This document shows, piece after piece, positions 10,018-24,476 of a stretch of DNA of 24,754 nucleotides (its first letter is position 1; every line of letters begins with the position of its first letter). Location: positions 1 through 24,754 of the IMG/VR virus record IMGVR_UViG_3300035703_000397; one strand, 5' to 3'. The notes below the pieces were generated by a model. The model was not told the origin of the DNA and did no database searches. It saw only the letters and a list, made by a program, of their open reading frames with translations. Made by a program: the position numbers and the translations under genes. This stretch comes from a virus.

Positions 10018-10089
10018 ATGTGGACAACTCCAGCAGCTACAGAAATTAGATTAGGAATGGAAATCACTGCTTATGTAATGAATCGTTAA
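10018..10089 (+). CDS. pqqA: PQQ precursor peptide PqqA
   Basis: 23 residues: MWTTPAATEIRL followed by GMEITAYVMNR. This matches the PqqA consensus along its whole length: W2, P5, R11, G13, the E15-x-x-x-Y19 pair that the radical-SAM enzyme PqqE crosslinks to start pyrroloquinoline quinone synthesis, and the N22-R23 end. The length equals that of many bacterial PqqA peptides. AAGGA lies 8 nt upstream. The gene runs plus-strand inside a minus-strand operon, with its own -10 box and terminator, like a moron gene. Its last 26 bases overlap, antisense, the end of the HNH gene. No pqqB, C, D or E is visible here, so the phage would feed host PqqD/PqqE. PQQ is the cofactor of MxaF/XoxF methanol dehydrogenases, so increased methanol oxidation during infection is inferred. 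Confidence 0.93.
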   Translation: MWTTPAATEIRLGMEITAYVMNR

Positions 10090-10690
10090 TTTTTTTACAA
10101 AAAGCATTATACAAAGAGGCGGACATTAGTCTGCCTTTTTGCCATTCATCACCTGGACAAATAGCATCTCTTTTATTAATTTGACCATTATTCCACCAAA
10201 AATATTTTCCACTTCTAACTTCTTTCATTTTTGCTTTTGTTTCATCAGACCATGGTTTGCCTTTGGTTCCTTTTTTACTAGAAGGTTTACCTTTTTTTGC
10301 TAATGATATTTTTTGTCTTGTTTCATCACTATGTGCAATACCTTTATTCCAAGGAGTTGCACCTAACATTCTTTTAGACATAATTTCTGCTTGTAATTTT
10401 TTAACATTTATTAATAACATGTGATTATGGTATCTATATTGTTTTGATGTTCTTGCTAACATAGCCATAGCAGACCCAACAACCTTATATAAATTATCTC
10501 CAGTTATAAACTTTGTTAATAATATATGGCACAAAAAATGTTCTCTTGCTGTCAAAACTACTAAATTATCTATACTATCACTACCACCCAAACACTTAGG
10601 TAGGATATGGTGTGTTTCAGTATAGCCATTGTTTACCCTACCCTTTGCGTTATTAATAATATTAAAATACCATTTTTCATATTTGTTCAT
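10064..10690 (-). CDS. HNH homing endonuclease with NUMOD3 motifs
   Basis: 208 residues. The HNH core is TETHHILPKCLGGSDSIDNL (H27-H28, N42), with AREHFLCH carrying the later H51. Residues about 125-170 hold NUMOD3-type DNA-binding repeats (DETRQKISLAKKGKPS and WSDETKAKMKEVRSGKYFW), and NNGQINKRDAICPGDEWQKG is the usual end of this class. It is a free-standing selfish endonuclease between the SSB-like and SleB-like genes. It has its own extended -10 promoter and an AGGGG ribosome site. The last residues (about 200-208) are read from the strand opposite pqqA, which may mean the gene end was extended when the two elements came together. Confidence 0.85.
   Translation of the reverse strand: MNKYEKWYFNIINNAKGRVNNGYTETHHILPKCLGGSDSIDNLVVLTAREHFLCHILLTKFITGDNLYKVVGSAMAMLARTSKQYRYHNHMLLINVKKLQAEIMSKRMLGATPWNKGIAHSDETRQKISLAKKGKPSSKKGTKGKPWSDETKAKMKEVRSGKYFWWNNGQINKRDAICPGDEWQKGRLMSASLYNAFCKKINDSLHKQ
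10113..10140 (+). terminator. Intrinsic terminator of the pqqA unit
   Basis: GGCGGAC (10118-10124), loop ATTA, GTCTGCC (10129-10135) with one G-T wobble, then TTTTT at 10136-10140. The flanking AAAGA upstream pairs with the T tract and lengthens the stem. It lies 28 nt after the pqqA stop on the same strand and is contained within the 3' coding part of the HNH gene. Confidence 0.8.
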
Positions 10691-12731: not shown

Positions 12732-12893
12732 ATGACTTTAGAAGAGGCTTTATCACACTTTAACAATTCTCGTAGGGAGTTGGCAGAGGCTTTGGGTGTT
12801 TCTACCCAGGCAGTTCAATATTGGGCTGACGAGGAACAAATACCAGAATTAAGAGCTTATCAAATTAAAGAAATTATATCAAACAGAAAGTAG
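12732..12893 (+). CDS. Cro-like DNA-binding regulator
   Basis: 53 residues. The helix-turn-helix is SRRELAEALGVSTQAVQYWA (residues about 13-32), followed by DEEQIPELRAYQIKEI. This is the layout of P22-type Cro proteins, in which 'AVxxALGIxxxAVxxW...IPxxxAYxIE' fills a similar length. It would bind operators between the two divergent promoters and turn early transcription down. AAGGA stands 6-7 nt upstream and the strong rightward promoter lies just before. No partner repressor of the CI type is encoded in the window, so it may act as a simple early-gene regulator in a lytic phage. Confidence 0.75.
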   Translation: MTLEEALSHFNNSRRELAEALGVSTQAVQYWADEEQIPELRAYQIKEIISNRK

Positions 12894-12898
12894 GGCAT

Positions 12899-13795
12899 AT
12901 GAAATATAGGATTGTTAATTTTCGTAAATTTCAGAACTTTCACGACAGAAAACCGCCATGGATTAAATTATATAGGGATTTATTAGATAACATGGATTGG
13001 TTTATGTTAAGTCCAATAGCTAGTAAAAGCCTTATAAATTTATGGCTTTTAGGGTCTGAGTCATTTGGTAACTTGCCAGATGATTTTGAAATTGGATTTA
13101 GATTAAGACTCAATCAAAAAGAATTAGATATAGTTATGAAAGAGCTAATTAAGTTCAAGTTTGTTGAAGAAGGTAAGTATGAATTAAAAGGTTCTGAAGA
13201 AATGTCTATGAATGAACGTATTAGGGAAACCAATGGATTTGCTAGTAGATATATTAAAAATGAAACTAAAACAGAAGTATTAGTAAGAGATAATCATAAA
13301 TGCCAATCTTGTGGTTCTGATAAGAAATTAGAGTTTGACCACATTGTTCCTGTTTCTAAAGGCGGTTCTTCTGAGGCAAATAACCTTCAATTACTATGTA
13401 GGTCATGCAATAGAAGCAAAAGAGCATTATCAAAAGAAGAGTTTGCTACGCAAAGCACAGAAAAAAACTGCGTTAGTCGTAGCCTAGAGACAGAGACAGA
13501 GGCAGAGAGAGAGAGAAAGAAACATATCTATAGCGTTGAGTTTGAAAAGTTTTGGGATACCTTTCCTCCAAATCCGAGAAAGACTGGTAAAGTTTATGCT
13601 TATAAAATATGGACAAGAAAAAGACTAGATGAAAAAATTGATGACATTGTTAAGCATTTGCTTATAATTAGCACTACTGACCAATGGAAAAAAGATAAGG
13701 GAATGTATATACCAATGCCATCAACGTATTTAAGCCAGGAGAGATTTGACATGGAAATTACTGCACAGAAAAAAGTTTGGGAAGGTGGAATATGA
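12899..13795 (+). CDS. Replication initiation-type protein with embedded HNH domain
   Basis: 298 residues in three parts. Residues 1-100 (HDRKPPWIKLYRDLLDNMDW, then LSPIASKSLINLWLL) match the N-terminal winged-helix region of phage replisome organisers. Residues 120-180 are a complete HNH nuclease domain: CQSC (C135, C138), DHIVPVSKGG (D147, H148), N162, and CRSCN (C167, C170). A charged linker (ETETEAERERKK) then leads to residues 213-290, with EFEKFWDTFPPNPRKTGKVY and PMPSTYLSQERF, the usual C-terminal domain of DnaT/lambda-O-like replication proteins. The HNH domain lies between two halves of a familiar protein without breaking the frame. It begins 5 nt after the Cro-like gene and precedes the helicase gene, the usual order for an initiator and helicase pair. 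Confidence 0.75.
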   Translation: MKYRIVNFRKFQNFHDRKPPWIKLYRDLLDNMDWFMLSPIASKSLINLWLLGSESFGNLPDDFEIGFRLRLNQKELDIVMKELIKFKFVEEGKYELKGSEEMSMNERIRETNGFASRYIKNETKTEVLVRDNHKCQSCGSDKKLEFDHIVPVSKGGSSEANNLQLLCRSCNRSKRALSKEEFATQSTEKNCVSRSLETETEAERERKKHIYSVEFEKFWDTFPPNPRKTGKVYAYKIWTRKRLDEKIDDIVKHLLIISTTDQWKKDKGMYIPMPSTYLSQERFDMEITAQKKVWEGGI

Positions 13796-13935: not shown

Positions 13936-14053
13936 TGAAGCTATTGGAACATTCATAGGAAAAACTATTACATGGGTTTTATTTTTATTTGCTATAGGAT
14001 TAGTTGCTAAAATAGCTTATATCATAATTACATTTGCATGGCGTTTAATATGA
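13919..14053 (+). CDS. Very small membrane peptide
   Basis: 44 residues: a polar start (MKKETNEAIG) followed by one long TM helix (ITWVLFLFAIGLVAKIAYII). GGTGG lies 3-7 nt upstream. Its stop overlaps the preferred helicase start as ATGA, consistent with translational coupling. The function is unknown; membrane location is predicted. Confidence 0.45.
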   Translation: MKKETNEAIGTFIGKTITWVLFLFAIGLVAKIAYIIITFAWRLI

Positions 14054-14970
14054 ACATAGGCGAAGTCATAGATAAACTAACAGTTAGCCAATCAACAGTT
14101 CAAGAATTTTATAACGAGGGGTATGGTCATGCAGAGTTTAAAGTTAAAGGTACGGATATATTTGCTGATGACTTGGTCAAGTATTTTAGTGAGGAAGTTC
14201 ATAGTGGCAAATCGTTGGGCTGGATTAAGACGGAAGATAAATTCAGGATTAGGTCTTCGGAACTAACAATTCTTACTGGTGTATCAGGTCATGGTAAGTC
14301 TATGTGGTTATCACAAGTTGTATTAGCTATGATGAAACAGAATACTAAATGCCTAATAGCTTCTTTAGAAATGAGACCTGTTCTTACATTAGCTAGAATG
14401 ATTACACAGGCATTAGGTTCACCAGAACCAACAGATGATTACATACGTAAGTTTTGTGATAGAGCTAAAGACAAGTTATATATATACGACCAAACAGGCA
14501 GCACTAAGTCAGAAGATATGATAGCAACTCTGCATTATGGAAAGCATGTGTTAGGAGTTGATGTATTTATTATTGACAGTCTTATGAAATTGGATGACGT
14601 AACTGAAGAGTCTTTAGATGGACAGAAAAGATTGACAAACAGTTTAGCGGTTATAGCACGTGATTTACAAGTAAGTATTTTTTTAGTAGCACATACTAGA
14701 AAACTTAAAGACGAGTCAGAGATACCTGATGCTACAAACATTATGGGAAGTTCGCATATTCGTAACTTATGTGATAATATTATTTGTGTATGGCGTAACA
14801 GATACAAAGAGAAGTTAATAGAAGAAGGCAAGACTTCAGATGATGAGTTAAAGATTATTCCAGATGCAAAGGTCTTTGTTCAGAAGCAGCGTAATGCACA
14901 ATGGGAAGGTTCATTTAACTTTTGGTTTGACCAAAAAGGTTTACGATATAACGAGAGTCCACCAAGATGA
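14050..14970 (+). CDS. DnaB-like replicative helicase (RecA-fold ATPase)
   Basis: 306 residues from the ATG at 14050 (ATGA overlap); an ATG at 14038 would add four residues. The Walker A loop GVSGHGKS is at 77-84, followed by a DnaB-type ASLEM (E in CLIASLEMRP). Walker B is VDVFIIDSL (about 170-178), then VAHTRKL, and NIMGSSHIRNLCDNIICVWR resembles the sensor and arginine-finger region of hexameric helicases. The N-terminal DnaB domain is absent, so it is a short single-domain version that may need the adjacent initiator protein for loading. It should unwind the replication fork. No primase or DNA polymerase gene is visible nearby, so host enzymes are probably used. Confidence 0.85.
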   Translation: MNIGEVIDKLTVSQSTVQEFYNEGYGHAEFKVKGTDIFADDLVKYFSEEVHSGKSLGWIKTEDKFRIRSSELTILTGVSGHGKSMWLSQVVLAMMKQNTKCLIASLEMRPVLTLARMITQALGSPEPTDDYIRKFCDRAKDKLYIYDQTGSTKSEDMIATLHYGKHVLGVDVFIIDSLMKLDDVTEESLDGQKRLTNSLAVIARDLQVSIFLVAHTRKLKDESEIPDATNIMGSSHIRNLCDNIICVWRNRYKEKLIEEGKTSDDELKIIPDAKVFVQKQRNAQWEGSFNFWFDQKGLRYNESPPR

Positions 14971-16252: not shown

Positions 16253-16470
16253 TGGGTAAAGGTTCTGGAAGAAGACCATTGTTAATTTCTGAACAAGAAG
16301 CACAAGACAATTGGGACAAGATATTCAAAAAAGAAAAGAATAGTCCTGACGTTTCACCGCACACTTATGAATACGAACTTAATAAGTCCACCGGTAATGT
16401 AGAGAAAAGATTTATAGACGGAATATGGAAACCTAACAGTGAGCAATTTGACAATATTAAAGATGATTAA
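16252..16470 (+). CDS. Small conserved phage protein, unknown
   Basis: 72 residues beginning MGKGSGRRP, followed by EQEAQDNWDKIFKK. This start ('GKGSxRRP...NWDxIF') is common in short phage proteins found near nin-region nucleases; no function is known to me. The second half is polar and acidic. It overlaps the methyltransferase start by 8 nt. Confidence 0.6.
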   Translation: MGKGSGRRPLLISEQEAQDNWDKIFKKEKNSPDVSPHTYEYELNKSTGNVEKRFIDGIWKPNSEQFDNIKDD

Positions 16471-17086
16471 AATAGGACAAGCAGAATTACACAATATAGA
16501 TTGCATGGCTTATATGGTTACTTTGCCTGATAAAGCATTTGATTTGGCTATTGTAGACCCGCCTTATGGAATTGATGTAACAAAAATGAATATGGGCTCA
16601 AGGCAAACAATAAGACCTGATAAAACAAAAACTTGGGACTTAGCAGTTCCAAACAAAGAATATTTTGATGAGTTAAAAAGGGTAAGTAAAAATCAAATTA
16701 TTTGGGGAGGTAATTATTTTGCATTACCGCCAACAAGATGTTGGTTAATTTGGGATAAAGGAGAGTCAATGTACGGAAGGGATTTTGCTGAAGCTGAAAT
16801 GGCTTGGACAAGTTTTGATAAGGTTGTAAGGTTAAATAAGTTAAATCCAAATCAACTTGATAGAATACATCCAACACAAAAGCCTGTAAAATTATATGAA
16901 TGGCTATTAACCAATTATGCTGAAAAAGGTCAAAAAATATTAGATACACATTTAGGTTCAGGTTCTATTGCTGTTGCTTGTAATAATTTAGGTTTTGATT
17001 TAGTGGGATGTGAATTAGACCAAGATTATTATAAATCGGCTTGCGATAGAGTTAATCAAGCTACAGCACAGACAAGGATGTTTTAA
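16463..17086 (+). CDS. DNA methyltransferase (DPPY type)
   Basis: 207 residues from the ATG at 16463, overlapping the previous stop by 8 nt; a GTG at 16439 would add eight residues. The catalytic motif IV AIVDPPYGID is near residues 31-40. The target-recognition region is short. HPTQKPVKLYEWLL and ILDTHLGSGSIAVACNNLGF (motif I, S-adenosylmethionine site) follow, so the order is the beta class with motif IV first. The DPPY form usually methylates adenine N6 but can also be cytosine N4. No restriction enzyme accompanies it, so protection of phage DNA is the likely purpose. Confidence 0.85.
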   Translation: MIKIGQAELHNIDCMAYMVTLPDKAFDLAIVDPPYGIDVTKMNMGSRQTIRPDKTKTWDLAVPNKEYFDELKRVSKNQIIWGGNYFALPPTRCWLIWDKGESMYGRDFAEAEMAWTSFDKVVRLNKLNPNQLDRIHPTQKPVKLYEWLLTNYAEKGQKILDTHLGSGSIAVACNNLGFDLVGCELDQDYYKSACDRVNQATAQTRMF

Positions 17087-17916: not shown

Positions 17917-18245
17917 TGATTAGTATGGAACGCTTATTGTCCATCCTAGAGGATTGGGCTTTATGGATGAAGTCGGATAATCACAAACTAGGTTATCCAT
18001 CTAAAAGCATAGGCATGTCATCCGGTGGTGAGTCTACTTCAGAAGCGTTTGAAGAGATGTGTTCTGCCCAAGATATGTCTAATGTTAGAACTATTCACGC
18101 TATCGTGCATAGCTTAGAACAAGGACAACAAGAAGCTATCTATGCTAAATACTTAGGTGCTAAACCACCATTAGCCTTTTATTGGCAATTAGACATGGCA
18201 TACGATAATCTTTTAACTATTGCGAGTCGTAGAATAAATGCTTAA
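17916..18245 (+). CDS. Q-like late antiterminator candidate
   Basis: 109 residues. The pattern LEDWALWMKSDNHKLGYPSK, then GMSSGGESTSEAFEEM, then IVHSLEQGQQEAIYAKYLG and YDNLLTIASRRINA, resembles the phage antiterminator-Q or DUF1133-like group, where 'WGxWxR...LGYP..S...' precedes a sigma-region-4-like helix-turn-helix ('LxxxqxxaIxxxYLG'). Context supports it: it closes the middle region of the rightward operon and a strong promoter-terminator pair lies about 0.7 kb downstream, as with lambda Q, pR' and tR'. Family membership is by eye. Confidence 0.6.
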   Translation: MISMERLLSILEDWALWMKSDNHKLGYPSKSIGMSSGGESTSEAFEEMCSAQDMSNVRTIHAIVHSLEQGQQEAIYAKYLGAKPPLAFYWQLDMAYDNLLTIASRRINA

Positions 18246-18954
18246 TCTAATACATGGTGATTGTTTAGAGGTAATGAAAACATTACCTGATAATCATATA
18301 GATTTAACTATTACAAGCCCTCCTTACAATATGAGAACTAGAGTAAGAAATGGTAAATATACCACAAGAGAAAAGTCAGAACATTTTAGTAAAAAATATG
18401 AGCATTTTGATGATGCCTTACCAATTAATGAATTTTATGAATTTCATTTTAAAGTATTAAATGAACTACTAAGAGTATCTAAAATAGTTTGTTACAATTT
18501 TCAAATAGTAACAGGAAGTAAAGAAGCGTTTTTTAAAATGATTGGTGATTTTCATAAGCAAATAAAAGATATTATTATTTGGGATAAAAATACAGGTCAA
18601 CCAGCAATGCACTCTAATATTCTTAATAGTTGCTACGAATTTATTTTAATAATGGAAAATGATAGTATTGCAGGAAGGCACATTACAAACGCTAAATTTA
18701 AACGTGGTGAAATGAATAATATTCTAAGGGTTAAAAGAGGTAAAAAAATTCATGGTAGTCATGGAGCAGTTTTCCCTGAGAATTTAGTAAGTCAATTAAT
18801 GTTAGCATTTTCTAATGAGCATAATGTAATATTAGACCCATTTATGGGAACAGGCACTACTGGAGTTGTTGCAAAACAATTAAATAGAGATTTTATAGGT
18901 ATAGAAATATCTCAAGAGTACTTAGATATAGCAACTGCTAGGATAAACGCATAA
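18238..18954 (+). CDS. DNA methyltransferase (TSPPY type)
   Basis: 238 residues. The catalytic motif is LTITSPPYNMR (about residues 23-33), the SAM site is VILDPFMGTGTTGVVAKQLN near residue 200, and the end is DFIGIEISQEYLDIATARI. The beta-class order with SPPY is usual for cytosine-N4 methylases but also occurs in adenine-N6 ones. It overlaps the Q-like gene by 8 nt. It is not a close copy of the methyltransferase at 16463, so the two probably modify different sites and protect phage DNA from host restriction. Confidence 0.85.
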   Translation: MLNLIHGDCLEVMKTLPDNHIDLTITSPPYNMRTRVRNGKYTTREKSEHFSKKYEHFDDALPINEFYEFHFKVLNELLRVSKIVCYNFQIVTGSKEAFFKMIGDFHKQIKDIIIWDKNTGQPAMHSNILNSCYEFILIMENDSIAGRHITNAKFKRGEMNNILRVKRGKKIHGSHGAVFPENLVSQLMLAFSNEHNVILDPFMGTGTTGVVAKQLNRDFIGIEISQEYLDIATARINA

Positions 18955-19641: not shown

Positions 19642-19889
19642 TTAAGAAGGGTAAGGAAACATTCTCAGGTTATAATAAACCTAAAAGAACACCTAGTCAT
19701 CCTACTAAGTCACATGCAGTATTAGCTAAAGATGGTGACCAAGAAAAACTTATACGCTTTGGTCAAAAAGGCGTAAGTGGTGACAAAACAAATACAGATA
19801 GAGCAAAGTCATTTAAAGCAAGACACGCTAAGAATATTGCTAAAGGGAAGATGAGTGCGGCGTATTGGTCCAATAAGGTAAAGTGGTAA
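19638..19889 (+). CDS. DUF6321-like small basic protein
   Basis: 83 residues. The sequence GYNKPKRTPSHPTKSHAVLA, then KLIRFGQKGVSG, then SFKARHAKNIAKGKMSAAYW and SNKVKW, matches what I recall of the DUF6321 family, small basic phage proteins found just before terminase and portal genes. The function is not established; a virion or DNA-packaging role is possible. Its start overlaps the previous stop as ATGA and its end overlaps the next gene by 7 nt. Confidence 0.7.
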   Translation: MIKKGKETFSGYNKPKRTPSHPTKSHAVLAKDGDQEKLIRFGQKGVSGDKTNTDRAKSFKARHAKNIAKGKMSAAYWSNKVKW

Positions 19890-20590
19890 AACTAGATATA
19901 TACGTAGGCATGGATTTAAAGGTAGAACCAGTTGCTTATCATAACTTTTGCCAGTCAGTTATAGAGAAGTCATCTATACCGGTAAGTTTTACACCATTAG
20001 CACTAAATACTTTAAAAGACTACGAAGAAACACATAAAGACGGTAGTAACGCATTTATCTACTCACGCTTTCTAGTGCCATATCTAAATAACTTTAAAGG
20101 TGTCGCACTCTTTGTGGATGGCGATATGATATGCAGAACAGATATAGCAGAGATATTAGCTAACTTTGATAATGACGAAGCAGTTAAAGTCGTAAAGCAT
20201 AACTACACAACAAAGCATCCAGTTAAGTATCTAGGTGCAAAGAACGAGGACTATCCTAAAAAGAACTGGTCAAGCGTTATATTATGGAACTGTGGACATT
20301 GGTTAAACAAACAGTTAACGCCTAAGTTTGTGCAAGAAAAGACAGGACAATACCTACACAGGTTTGAATGGCTAAAGTATCCAGAAGAACAAGTAGGTAA
20401 GCTAGACGAGACATGGAACTGGCTAGAAACAGAATACGAATACAACGAGGATGCTAAGTTAGTGCATCACACATTAGGCACACCATGCTTTAAAGACTAT
20501 CAGAATACAGACTATAGTCAAGAATGGTGGGAAACATACCAAAGAATGATATATCCTTTAAAAGGAAAGAACAGGGAAAGCGAACTATGA
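19883..20590 (+). CDS. GT8-like glycosyltransferase
   Basis: 235 residues from a GTG at 19883. The start LDIYVGMDLKVEPVAYHNF and the metal-binding DxD (D79-G-D81) in GVALFVDGDMICRTDIAEIL are typical of GT-A-fold enzymes of the GT8 lipopolysaccharide type, followed by SSVILWNCGHW and KLVHHTLGTPCF. It would add a sugar to host envelope glycans, phage proteins or DNA; the substrate is unknown. It sits next to the terminase genes, where such genes also lie in other podoviruses I recall, which hints at a link to the virion or to superinfection exclusion. It ends on an ATGA overlap. Confidence 0.7.
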   Translation: MVKLDIYVGMDLKVEPVAYHNFCQSVIEKSSIPVSFTPLALNTLKDYEETHKDGSNAFIYSRFLVPYLNNFKGVALFVDGDMICRTDIAEILANFDNDEAVKVVKHNYTTKHPVKYLGAKNEDYPKKNWSSVILWNCGHWLNKQLTPKFVQEKTGQYLHRFEWLKYPEEQVGKLDETWNWLETEYEYNEDAKLVHHTLGTPCFKDYQNTDYSQEWWETYQRMIYPLKGKNRESEL

Positions 20591-20921: not shown

Positions 20922-21251
20922 ATGGACAAAGAAGAACAATTAGCATTAGCTAGAGAGAAAGCAGCCGAAGTAAACAAAGGCAACACATATTCTAGTAAAA
21001 ACAATAGGTTATGGGCAGATACTCTGAGACGTGCTGTTATTCAATCAGATGCAGAACGCTTACGTATGATAGCAGAGGCTTTAATAGATAAAGCAGCTTC
21101 AGGTGATGTATCAGCTATCAAAGAACTAGGTGATAGAATAGACGGTAAGTCAGTAGCAACTACAGAGTTGACTGGCGTAGATGGTTCTAATTTACCTATA
21201 AGCATTGGGATTAACTTTGTCAAGCCAGACGATAGCAACATTTCCGAATAA
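20922..21251 (+). CDS. terS: Terminase small subunit
   Basis: 109 residues. The core RLWADTLRRAVIQSDAERLR, then MIAEALIDKAASGDVSAIKE and LGDRIDGKS, is the helical block seen in many phage small terminases ('LRRAL...RLRxIAxxLIxKAxxGDxxAIKELxDRxDGK'). It recognises the packaging site and guides the large subunit encoded directly downstream. GGAGT lies about 10 nt upstream. Its end overlaps the large-subunit gene by 35 nt. Confidence 0.8.
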   Translation: MDKEEQLALAREKAAEVNKGNTYSSKNNRLWADTLRRAVIQSDAERLRMIAEALIDKAASGDVSAIKELGDRIDGKSVATTELTGVDGSNLPISIGINFVKPDDSNISE

Positions 21252-22473
21252 GCTAGACTTCTTATTTGAGCCACACCGTTATAAAGTAGCATACGGTGGT
21301 AGAGGTTCAGGTAAGTCATGGTCTATGGCAAGGGCATTGCTTATAAAGGCAGCCAATGAGCCAACACGTGTCTTATGTGCTCGTGAAATACAAAAGTCTA
21401 TCAAGCAGTCAGTACATACATTACTTAATGACCAGATACAATCATTAGGTCTAGGAGCTTTTTATGAAGTTCTTGAGTCAGAAATACGAGGTATTAACGG
21501 TAGTACATTTAGCTTTACTGGGTTGGCTACTAATACTGTTGAGTCTATAAAGTCTTTTGAGGGCTGTGACATAGTATGGGTAGAAGAAGCACAGACAGTT
21601 AGTAAGAAGTCATGGGATATTCTTATACCTACGATACGTAAACCTAATTCAGAGATATGGGTATCATTTAACCCTAACATAGATACAGACGATACATATA
21701 CTAGATTTGTGGTTAATCCACCAGAGAACGCTAAGGTTGTTAAAGTAAACTATACTGACAATCCTTGGTTTCCTGAAGTATTAGAGATAGAACGTCTACA
21801 CAGCGAAAAGACTAACCCTGACTATGCAAACATATGGGAAGGTGATTGTAAAGCTGCTGTAGATGGTGCTATATACTCTAACGAGATACGTGAAGCACAA
21901 GAAGGTAACCGTATAACAACTGTACCTTATGACCCTATGATGAAGGTTCATGTAGTCATGGACTTAGGATGGAACGACAGCATGTCAGTTATCCTATGCC
22001 AAAAAGGTATATCAGACTTACGCATCATTGGTTACATAGAAGATGACCACAGAACATTAGATAGTTATTCTGCACAACTTAAGAACTTATCCTATAACTG
22101 GGGTACAATGTTCTTACCACATGACGGACAGTCTAAAGACTTTAAGCATGGTATATCAGCAGAAGAGATTATGAAGAAGTTAGGATGGGATATACGTATC
22201 GTGCCTAAAGCAGACATAGAGTCTGGTATTAAGTTAGCACGTATGAACTTCCACCGTATATACTTTGATAAGTCAGCACAAAGACTTGTTGAATGTTTAA
22301 AGAATTATCGCAGAAGTATAAACTCTGCAACTAACGAACCTGGTGCGCCACTACATGACGAATACAGCCATGGAGCAGATGCGTTCAGATATTTATGTAC
22401 CTCTATTGAGTCTATGAAGAACGAGTCATGGAGCAAAGAGAAAATACAATATACAAATAGAGGAATTGTTTGA
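21217..22473 (+). CDS. terL: Terminase large subunit
   Basis: 418 residues of the PBSX/Terminase_3 type. Walker A is GGRGSGKS at 27-34, Walker B is CDIVWVEEA (about 117-125), and the coupling motif is WVSFNPN. The nuclease domain starts VVMDLGWNDSMSVI (D249), with LPHDGQSKDFKHG and the late HDEYSHGADAFRY supplying further acidic residues. It packages DNA into the prohead and cuts it. There is no ATG upstream of the ATPase domain: the start must be a TTG, at 21217 (GGGA 6 nt upstream) or at 21205, so expression probably depends on coupling with the small subunit. Confidence 0.92.
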   Translation: MSSQTIATFPNKLDFLFEPHRYKVAYGGRGSGKSWSMARALLIKAANEPTRVLCAREIQKSIKQSVHTLLNDQIQSLGLGAFYEVLESEIRGINGSTFSFTGLATNTVESIKSFEGCDIVWVEEAQTVSKKSWDILIPTIRKPNSEIWVSFNPNIDTDDTYTRFVVNPPENAKVVKVNYTDNPWFPEVLEIERLHSEKTNPDYANIWEGDCKAAVDGAIYSNEIREAQEGNRITTVPYDPMMKVHVVMDLGWNDSMSVILCQKGISDLRIIGYIEDDHRTLDSYSAQLKNLSYNWGTMFLPHDGQSKDFKHGISAEEIMKKLGWDIRIVPKADIESGIKLARMNFHRIYFDKSAQRLVECLKNYRRSINSATNEPGAPLHDEYSHGADAFRYLCTSIESMKNESWSKEKIQYTNRGIV

Positions 22474-24476
22474 TGAATATAGAAGACATGGAAATAATTG
22501 CACAGATAGAGGCGCAAGAGAATATAGCCTATGGTGTAAATGATAGTGCATTGTCTAATGATAGAGCAGAAGCGATTGACTACTACCTAGGACAACCATT
22601 CGGTAACGAAGAAGAAGGTCGTTCACAAGTTGTATCGTATGACGTTCAAGATACTATTGAGTCAGCTCTCCCTCAGCTTTTAAAAGTCTTTGTAGCTGGT
22701 GACAAAGTTGTTCAGTTTGACCCTAAAGGTCCTGAAGACCAAGACGCAGCAGACCAAGAAACAGATTACATTAATCATATCGTTATGGAAAAGAACGAAG
22801 GGTTTAAAGTATTCTATGTCTGGTTTAAAGACGCACTACTCTCTAAGAACGGTTATGTAAAAGTATATGCCGAAGAAGAAGAGGAAGAAGAAGAATACGA
22901 GTATAAAGGTCTATCTGACGCACAACTACAGATGTTGGCTTCAGATGATAATACAGAAGTATTAGAGCATACTGGTTACCCTGACCCAAGTGTCAACATG
23001 GATGTTGTTTATCAACAAGCAGCCATGAATGGTGTAGACCCAGCTACAGTTATGCAACCTATGTTACATGACGTTAAGCTTAAGGTTACAGAAAAAGAAA
23101 CAGAGATTGTTATTGAGAACGTAGCTCCAGAAAACATGATGATTTCTGTAGAAGTTAATGGTCCTAACTTACAAGATGCTAAGTTTGTTCAACATAGAGA
23201 AGTGATGCAGTTAGCTGACATTGCTGAGACGTTTGACAAGCCACTAGATTATATTAAGTCTATTATGTCAGACCTACGAGACACTTTTGAAGAAGAGTCT
23301 AATGCTCGTGATATTTATGATGAAGAATATGATAGAGCTATTGAGTCACAAGAAGCACTCGTTAAAGACACATACATTAAGTTAGATGGTGAAAGATATA
23401 GAGTAGTCGTATTAGGTAACACAGTTCTTTATAAAGAGAAATGTGAGTATGTACCTTTCGCATGTATCACACCTATGATAATGCCACATAGACATATTGG
23501 TCGTTCTTATGCTGACTTGACTATGGACATTCAGCTCATTAAGTCTACGCTTATTCGTGGTCAGTTAGATAACATGTATCTAGCTAACAATGGTCGTTAT
23601 GCTATCTCAGATAGAGTAAACCTAGACGATATGCTAACGTCAAGACCAGGTGGTATTGTTCGTGTAGAAGGTGACCCAGGTTCAGGTATTATGCCTTTAT
23701 CACATCCACCACTACCAGCATCATCATTCGGTATGGTTGAATACATGGACTCTATGAAAGAGAAGAGAACAGGTATCACAGCATATAACCAAGGCTTAGA
23801 CTCTAACAGTCTTAACAAGACAGCTACCGGTGTAGCACAGATTATGAATGCGTCTCAACAACGTATTGAGTTAGTAGCTAGAACATTTGCTGAAACAGGC
23901 GTTAAAGAGTTATTTAAACTTGTGCATTACTTGGTAAGAACAACACTTACTAAACCAGACATTATTCGTTTACGTAACAAATGGGTAGAAGTAGACCCTA
24001 GAGAATGGAAAGCTCGTAAAGACTTATCTATCTCTGTAGGCTTAGGTGCTGGTAATAAAGACCAACAGTTAGTTCACTTAACATCTATCTTGAATATGCA
24101 AAAAGAAGCTATCCAAATAGGTCTTACATCACCAGATAAGATATATAACGCATTAGCTAAACTTACACAGAATGCAGGCTTTAAGAACCCTGAAGAGTTC
24201 TGGGTTAATCCAGCTAATACACCTGAACAAGAAGGTCAGCAAGATAAACCTTCTGAAGCAGAGATTATGATTCAAGGTCAGTTACAGATTGAACAACAAA
24301 AAGCTCAAGCACAACTACAACAAGAGCAAGTACGTTCACAGAATGATGTTATAATTGAACGTGAGAAGATAGCATCTCAAGCAGAACTAGAACGCTTTAA
24401 GGCACAATTAAGAGCAGAGACAGATTTAGCTATCGCACAAATCAAAGCACAATCAGGAATGATATATGGCGGATAA
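22473..24476 (+). CDS. P22-type portal protein
   Basis: 667 residues from the ATG at 22473 (TGATG junction with the terminase stop), AGAGGA upstream. The start AYGVNDSALSNDRAEAIDYY, followed by LGQPFGNEEEGRSQVV, is typical of large P22-like portals. The central RSYADLTMDIQLIKSTLIRG and the GIMPLSHPPLPASSF segment fit the clip and stem region. The C-terminal 100 residues are a Gln/Glu-rich coiled coil (IEQQKAQAQLQQEQV), the barrel-like end of podovirus portals. It forms the dodecameric ring for DNA entry and exit. A run of eight glutamates (E134-E141) is unusual. Confidence 0.9.
   Translation: MNIEDMEIIAQIEAQENIAYGVNDSALSNDRAEAIDYYLGQPFGNEEEGRSQVVSYDVQDTIESALPQLLKVFVAGDKVVQFDPKGPEDQDAADQETDYINHIVMEKNEGFKVFYVWFKDALLSKNGYVKVYAEEEEEEEEYEYKGLSDAQLQMLASDDNTEVLEHTGYPDPSVNMDVVYQQAAMNGVDPATVMQPMLHDVKLKVTEKETEIVIENVAPENMMISVEVNGPNLQDAKFVQHREVMQLADIAETFDKPLDYIKSIMSDLRDTFEEESNARDIYDEEYDRAIESQEALVKDTYIKLDGERYRVVVLGNTVLYKEKCEYVPFACITPMIMPHRHIGRSYADLTMDIQLIKSTLIRGQLDNMYLANNGRYAISDRVNLDDMLTSRPGGIVRVEGDPGSGIMPLSHPPLPASSFGMVEYMDSMKEKRTGITAYNQGLDSNSLNKTATGVAQIMNASQQRIELVARTFAETGVKELFKLVHYLVRTTLTKPDIIRLRNKWVEVDPREWKARKDLSISVGLGAGNKDQQLVHLTSILNMQKEAIQIGLTSPDKIYNALAKLTQNAGFKNPEEFWVNPANTPEQEGQQDKPSEAEIMIQGQLQIEQQKAQAQLQQEQVRSQNDVIIEREKIASQAELERFKAQLRAETDLAIAQIKAQSGMIYGG

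Follow-up and report, generated by a model that had tools for sequence, protein, structure and literature searches.

A phage replication initiator gene with an in-frame HNH nuclease domain beside origin-like iterons

The DNA analysed here, positions 1 to 24,754 of IMG/VR virus record IMGVR_UViG_3300035703_000397 (24,754 nucleotides, referred to as the window), contains a replication initiator gene in which a complete HNH nuclease domain is encoded between an N-terminal winged-helix DNA-binding domain and a C-terminal initiator domain, next to repeats that resemble the iterons of a replication origin. Among relatives, the type of these iterons goes with the presence of the HNH domain. We propose, as a reading that falls a little short of probable, that the protein is an origin-directed nuclease with a homing-like or trans action.

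Results

An HNH domain within a replication initiator

The frame of 12899-13795 (+) is uninterrupted through the N-terminal part, the HNH domain, an acidic linker and the C-terminal part, giving a protein of 298 amino acids (Table 1). The initial annotation had described a complete HNH domain inside a replication initiator without a break in the frame, and the profile searches bear this out: the Pfam HNH family PF01844 matches residues 135-174 (E=7.1e-14, 52.1 bits versus a cut-off of 21.4), and HNH_5 also matches this region (3e-12). The residues C135/C138, D147-H148, N162, C167/C170 and N171 are all present; C135, C138, H148, N162, C167, C170 and N171 are invariant in alignments A1 and A4. 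The domain of the window thus has its catalytic His (H148), and the catalytic D-H and N are kept in 14/14 fused sequences and the last N in 13/14. An intein or intron was ruled out, since the frame is continuous and the insert of ~80 amino acids consists of the HNH domain alone.

Structure prediction of the separate parts gave both a winged helix and an HNH fold. The N-terminal domain was modelled by AlphaFold as a winged helix with a predicted local distance difference test score (pLDDT) of 86-97 over residues ~31-90, in agreement with the winged helix that had been suggested from the sequence. Its nearest structures in VIA-align were 4pql (Z 7.4), 5kbj (Z 7.1), 4pt7 (Z 7.0) and 4pta (6.6-7.4 across the four), which we take to be RepA_N-type plasmid initiators, their titles giving only 'initiator' or 'Rep-DNA complex'; the N-terminal domain of DnaD (2v79) followed at Z 6.1. 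These Z-scores (6-7.4) are modest, and initiators head the structure list in both AlphaFold models. A search of PDB sequences with the N-domain profile returned only inositol monophosphatase matches, which were discarded as spurious. In the first AlphaFold model the HNH domain reached a pLDDT of only about 50 for lack of HNH rows in the alignment; adding such rows mended the HNH domain (pLDDT 81-94 in the second model) and worsened the C-domain. The top structural matches of the HNH fold included the HNH nicking endonuclease 4h9d (best in Foldseek), McrA (6ghc), IscB and the GVE2 HNH protein (5h0m), with Z about 7, which is modest for a small domain. The segments flanking the HNH domain, including the linker, are disordered in the model.

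The flanks belong to replication proteins, as had been supposed. The N-terminal part (residues 1-114) matches phrog_26426 'replication protein' at residues 6-91 (8e-9), and residues 180-298 match phrog_9474, phrog_270 and phrog_9327 'replication initiation/primosomal protein'. When the HNH domain was excised in silico, the joined N- and C-terminal parts were collinear with phrog_26426 (6-183) and phrog_270 (38-225). The C-terminal part had been assigned to the phage replisome organisers; it is an FW..YP/TWL..RW-type initiator C-domain, detected through PHROGs, and the more specific part of that assignment did not stand, as the C-terminal part has no match to a Pfam replisome-organiser domain.

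Iterons in the linker-coding DNA change with the HNH domain

In HNH-free relatives, the linker-coding DNA contains 11-bp units, GATATCAnnnn or GCTAGCAnnnn, repeated in tandem ahead of a GAGACA tract. Matches at lag 11 in this linker DNA averaged 18.7/26 versus 12.0 in synonymous shuffles, with an excess in 49/53 genes, and the excess was absent at lags 9, 10 and 12-14 and in control codons. Because 11 is not a multiple of 3, the repeats reflect selection on the DNA.

The HNH-bearing genes have a different site. A GCTACG-type site was found in 14/14 HNH-bearing genes examined versus 1/41 HNH-free genes (p=3e-12), where the window and L006 (85% identical) are two of the 14, and where the searched stretch was longer for HNH-bearing genes, the sites displayed falling in the linker. 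In the fullest cases the site is a dyad, TGCG[T/G]AGC-N4-5-GCTACGCA, followed in most by [T/C]GTAGCC[T/C]AGAG. Conversely, two or more GATATC/GCTAGC sites were present in 0/14 HNH-bearing versus 33/41 HNH-free genes (p=7e-8). None of the three supported independent HNH/iteron contrasts runs contrary to this association. GCTAGCA-type sites occur in the HNH-free genes L261 and L262, which in the N-domain stand closest to L292 and L176; thus the site type follows the HNH domain and not the winged-helix family. In L176, L292, L289, L294 and L308, the HNH-coding DNA is bracketed by iteron copies, and in L176 a perfect 23-bp palindrome stands on either side of it. The link to origin recognition is thereby stronger than in the initial annotation, with origin-like iterons beside the HNH domain and their type tracking its presence.

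The sites of the window itself are listed in Table 1. Comparison of the window clade with L006/L007 gave synonymous changes at 2/18 positions in the linker right of the HNH domain versus 20/38 in the HNH domain, and this near-invariant linker contains TTTGCTACGCAAAGC and TAGTCGTAGCCTAGAGACAGAGACAGAGG. Used as a collection-wide DNA probe, 13475-13495 retrieved three previously unseen HNH-bearing initiator contigs. Compared with synonymous shuffles in the window clade only, the site is borderline (P about 0.06), and across the window as a whole there is no enrichment of the half-site TTGCTACGCA when 2 mismatches are allowed; the argument depends on comparing relatives. An exact 16-mer iteron scan of viral contigs gave 15 stretches, of which only that on the contig of L292 was an initiator gene, the others showing no sign of one. 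A seeming 'SRY' micro-homology at the insertion point (STRYQ in HNH-free proteins, SRYI before the HNH domain) was rejected, as STRYQ is translated GATATCAAGATGAT iterons. Among the near-identical HNH-free initiator genes L035, L037, L038 and L039, the number of GAGACA (ET) repeats varies in the linker region, which suggests slippage next to the iterons.

The HNH domain has been gained or lost as a module

All of the closest relatives (7/7, viral contigs with 84-98% amino acid identity) retain the HNH domain, and more than 120 contigs have the same N-domain without it; L013, L097, L098, L159 and L163 are HNH-free genes that hold both the N- and the C-terminal parts. The presence of relatives with and without the domain implies its modular gain or loss. 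L041 shares the N-domain and HNH domain with the window (43% overall) and has a different C-domain, and L113 is its HNH-free collinear counterpart. The HNH-bearing set, which was enlarged by the DNA probe and then by an HNH-plus-linker profile, comprises 26 IMG/VR viral contigs besides the window and one bacterial metagenome-assembled genome (L176, from a sponge symbiont), all with the HNH domain at the same place. It spans at least 4 N-domain groups and several C-domains. No further fusion turned up among 369 sampled genomes from the class to which L176's host belongs, and no phage or plasmid record among those searched covered the N-domain plus the HNH domain. A near-identical HNH-less allele was not found among the relatives, the HNH-free genes being at most about 55-60% identical in the N-domain.

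The domain histories are discordant. In the N-domain tree, a single clade of HNH-bearing genes was rejected (approximately unbiased test, p-AU 0.0006), and 5 HNH changes were counted, of which at least 3 are forced by supported branches. In the HNH tree, a single clade of fused HNH domains was not rejected (p-AU 0.36). Supported conflict between HNH and N-domain placement was found for L295 and L301; the HNH domain of L295 groups with L041/L274 (96/85) and its N-domain with HNH-free L118/L128/L129 (98/97). N-domain swaps could explain part of this discordance.

The ratio of nonsynonymous to synonymous substitution (dN/dS) versus L006/L007 was 0.05-0.06 in both the N-domain and the HNH domain (HNH 0.06). 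Among the most similar phages, the HNH-coding DNA shows little or no change, in contrast to strong divergence in the N-domain and in adjacent genes: between the window and L001, synonymous changes occurred at 24/50 positions in the N-domain and 0/38 in the HNH domain (p=6e-8). This lack of synonymous divergence appears to be a trace of recent exchange with breakpoints near the HNH domain. A location at exchange or recombination boundaries has been described for phage nuclease genes in general (PMC10448857).

An HNH domain at the same point also occurs in two further initiator families, represented by Pseudomonas phage P27 and by contig L326, which has a DnaD-type N-domain. The P27 HNH domain groups elsewhere in the HNH tree, and the P27 relatives JBD44 and LC3I3 lack the domain and have a C-terminal half nearly identical to that of P27. 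In the P27/LC3I3 pair (L170:2644-3726 versus L103:4770-5618), the DNA is nearly identical from the repeats to the stop codon, the N-terminal part has diverged and the HNH domain is present only in P27; by its sequence this pair looks like a natural recombinant with its breakpoint at the repeats.

Another HNH protein, consisting of an HNH domain and an extra domain of ~150-200 amino acids, is encoded by a separate gene directly upstream of a winged-helix initiator-type gene in several phages (Table 1), which, from gene order, seems to be a recurrent HNH-initiator neighbourhood. In Shewanella phage Y11, an HNH gene (L107:3746-4231) lies immediately upstream of that for replication protein O. The first HNH tree placed the Y11 HNH domain nearest to that of the window (93/85), although its branch is long.

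Gene neighbourhood

The initiator lies within a replication operon (Table 1), and in the window and the L007 contig the fused protein is the sole initiator seen there. An initiator C-domain and an adjacent replicative helicase gene are thus both present in the window, and in relative L156 the helicase gene directly overlaps the initiator gene. It had been suggested that the HNH domain replaces a separate nickase; this idea was not upheld, as the adjacent gene encodes a helicase of the DnaB type, and relatives that lack the HNH domain have no need of a nickase in this gene context. A Rep/HUH nicking domain of the kind found in rolling-circle initiators was not among the Pfam, NCBIfam and PHROG matches listed.

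Elsewhere in the window, ~2.2 kb from the initiator, a free-standing homing-type endonuclease is encoded at 10064-10690 (-), with NUMOD3 motifs, a weak HNH match and a match to phrog_655 (8e-40). Two separate N6/N4 DNA methyltransferase genes (16439-17086 and 18238-18954, +) both match phrog_67, and their products could protect DNA against a phage-borne nuclease. The window further contains a glycosyltransferase-like gene (19883-20590) and an SU10-type portal gene (22470-24476, +; PF23899, 1e-194) adjoined by a large terminase gene (21205-22473).

Table 1. Features of the HNH-bearing initiator gene and its surroundings; positions refer to the window unless a locus is given.
Feature	Position	Strand	Basis or remark
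Cro-like helix-turn-helix gene, small, directly upstream of the initiator	12732..12893	+	Pfam P22_Cro 9e-11
HNH-bearing replication initiator gene, 298 amino acids	12899..13795	+	Open reading frame, Pfam and PHROG matches
N-terminal winged-helix DNA-binding domain, residues 1-95, RepA_N/DnaD N-terminal domain-like fold	12899..13183	+	AlphaFold, VIA-align, phrog_26426
HNH nuclease domain, residues ~118-178	13250..13432	+	PF01844, HNH fold, Foldseek
HNH catalytic codons	D147-H148, 13337-13342; N162, 13382-13384; N171, 13409-13411	+
Iteron half-site TTTGCTACGCA within linker-coding DNA	13442..13452	+	Conserved as DNA across the whole window clade
Second half-site with junction, AGTCGTAGCCTAGAGACAGAG	13475..13495	+	CGTAGC 33 bp (3 x 11) from first GCTACG
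GAGACA/GAGAGA purine tract encoding the acidic linker	13486..13520	+	After the iterons in nearly all relatives
C-terminal initiator domain, residues 211-298	13529..13792	+	phrog_9474 3e-13, phrog_270 1e-12; HNH-free homologues L013, L097, L098
DnaB-like replicative helicase gene, next in the operon after the initiator	14038..14970	+	Pfam DnaB_C 5e-15
Separate HNH genes upstream of initiator-type genes	L103:4031-4777, L105:3962-4720, L171:2489-3289, L172:2495-3325		Pseudomonas, Oenococcus, Escherichia and Gordonia phages

Discussion

Our preferred interpretation is that the gene encodes the replication initiator of the phage itself and, like lambda gene O, probably has its origin within it. O-type initiators of phage lambda have the origin inside the gene, and by analogy we infer that the iterons described here form an origin. 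The arrangement is similar in that these origin-like iterons lie in linker-coding DNA between the DNA-binding and helicase-recruiting parts, with helicase genes adjoining, and differs in that lambda O has no HNH domain, and in the present genes a GAGACA tract comes after repeats that are either 11-bp units (GATATCA/GCTAGCA) or GCTACGCA dyads. The winged helix would bind the iterons, and the C-domain would recruit the DnaB-like helicase encoded next door. Since the HNH domain sits between the origin-binding and helicase-recruiting parts, the nuclease should be carried to iteron DNA when the protein binds the origin. There, the protein may cut or nick the origins of related co-infecting phages, and repair would copy the HNH-plus-iteron segment into them, resulting in homing-like spread and an advantage to the owner. 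Because the HNH-coding DNA lies beside or inside the iteron array and comes with its own iteron type, the two behave as a cassette moved among initiator backbones. Homing-like spread is consistent with such behaviour, with the placement of the HNH-coding DNA within or next to the recognition array and with the island of identity at the HNH domain, and the fused protein presumably drives such spread by binding and cutting at the iterons. In a further version, which we regard as rather unlikely, the HNH domain and the GCTACGCA iterons form a mobile origin-converting cassette: rivals' origins are cut inside their initiator genes and repair installs the nuclease together with the new iteron type, after which the rival origin is served only by the fused initiator. 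Were this so, the HNH domain would be a selfish replicon-takeover element residing within replication origins, and may help to read the site.

The closest working precedent is Odn (Gp88), the origin-directed nuclease of Vibrio phage ICP1, in which a RepA_N domain is combined with a nuclease, iterons are targeted and a satellite is attacked (PMC8263062). Both proteins join an initiator-type DNA-binding domain (RepA_N) to a homing-type nuclease domain. In Odn, however, the nuclease is a C-terminal, GIY-YIG-like T5orf172 domain, whereas the window protein has an HNH domain inside a full initiator; and Odn lacks the helicase-recruiting C-domain and targets a satellite, whereas the window protein is encoded in the phage's own replication operon. 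Since neither the nuclease class nor the absence of the C-domain is matched, we have not classified the protein as an Odn. With free-standing phage HNH homing endonucleases it shares the HNH chemistry, the discordant module histories and the location at a recombination boundary (PMC10448857), but its nuclease is in frame within an essential-type gene and has no DNA-binding domain of its own. The suggestion of a captured homing endonuclease therefore survives in part: the HNH domain behaves as a gained or lost module, but with no near-identical allele lacking it found among the relatives, the domain does not qualify as a classical homing endonuclease. HNH-fused initiators are already in databases under the name 'HNH endonuclease' (PHROG 5718, 394 amino acids). 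PHROG 5718 and the initiator of Pseudomonas phage vB_Pae_SG_WM_Sew_P27 too have the HNH domain between the initiator N-domain and the linker, and differ in belonging to another initiator family with repeats of another sequence. A literature search of incomplete coverage found no paper on HNH-fused phage initiators.

Several points weigh against origin-directed cutting with homing-like spread. Cleavage, binding and origin activity are predictions from sequence, and self-cutting would need some means of avoidance. The relatives searched include no near-identical HNH-less allele that would mark a recent insertion. The iterons could be autoregulatory operators rather than an origin, and the window keeps only two or three half-sites, all right of the HNH domain. 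Relatedness inflates the p-values of the iteron association, and the three supported independent contrasts cannot reach significance. The single-domain trees of the N-domain and the HNH domain have few columns, and the segment without synonymous change may have come from ordinary mosaic recombination affecting a conserved gene.

The HNH domain might instead act in cis, nicking one strand at the phage's own origin for duplex opening, supercoil relief or a switch to rolling-circle replication, while the C-domain loads the helicase. We consider this doubtful, although it would fit the long retention of the domain together with intact initiator parts, the fusion of the HNH domain to an origin-binding domain beside origin-like iterons in 14/14 sequences, the nicking endonuclease as best PDB fold match, the co-variation of iteron type with the HNH domain and the low HNH dN/dS. 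However, replication proceeds without the domain in many relatives that share the gene order, the domain is patchily distributed, and a DnaB-loading initiator needs no nick. An Odn-type nuclease against competitors, in which the initiator DNA-binding domain aims the HNH domain at satellite or rival origins with no role in homing, fits the ICP1 precedent, and similar RepA_N-nuclease fusions exist in coliphages (PMC10448857). The N-domain here is RepA_N-like and rival origins bear a different iteron, but the HNH-bearing phages have their own iteron type, so that binding to the GATATCA/GCTAGCA sites of rivals is not implied. Odn, moreover, lacks the initiator C-domain, which the fused protein keeps; that protein is encoded in the replication operon and is the only initiator seen in the window and in the L007 contig. 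We judge this alternative unlikely. Least probable in our view is that the HNH domain was caught by chance in a tolerant linker as a harmless passenger or structural zinc element. HNH modules are found everywhere, and the linker, modelled as disordered, differs in length from one relative to another, but the conservation of the catalytic residues across the fused sequences, a dN/dS as low as that of the DNA-binding domain and the insertion point shared by separate families argue otherwise.

For detection of further HNH-fused initiators, GTAGCCTAGAGANAGAG plus GCTACGCA would provide a DNA signature if origin-directed action is correct. In that case, phage initiators have acquired an internal nuclease domain repeatedly, each time at this one position next to the origin, and the main family's insert carries an origin signal of its own. 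The idea of an origin-directed nuclease would then widen from the single ICP1/PLE arms race to numerous phages of the environment, and direct tests would become possible of how phages compete for, swap and protect their replication origins.
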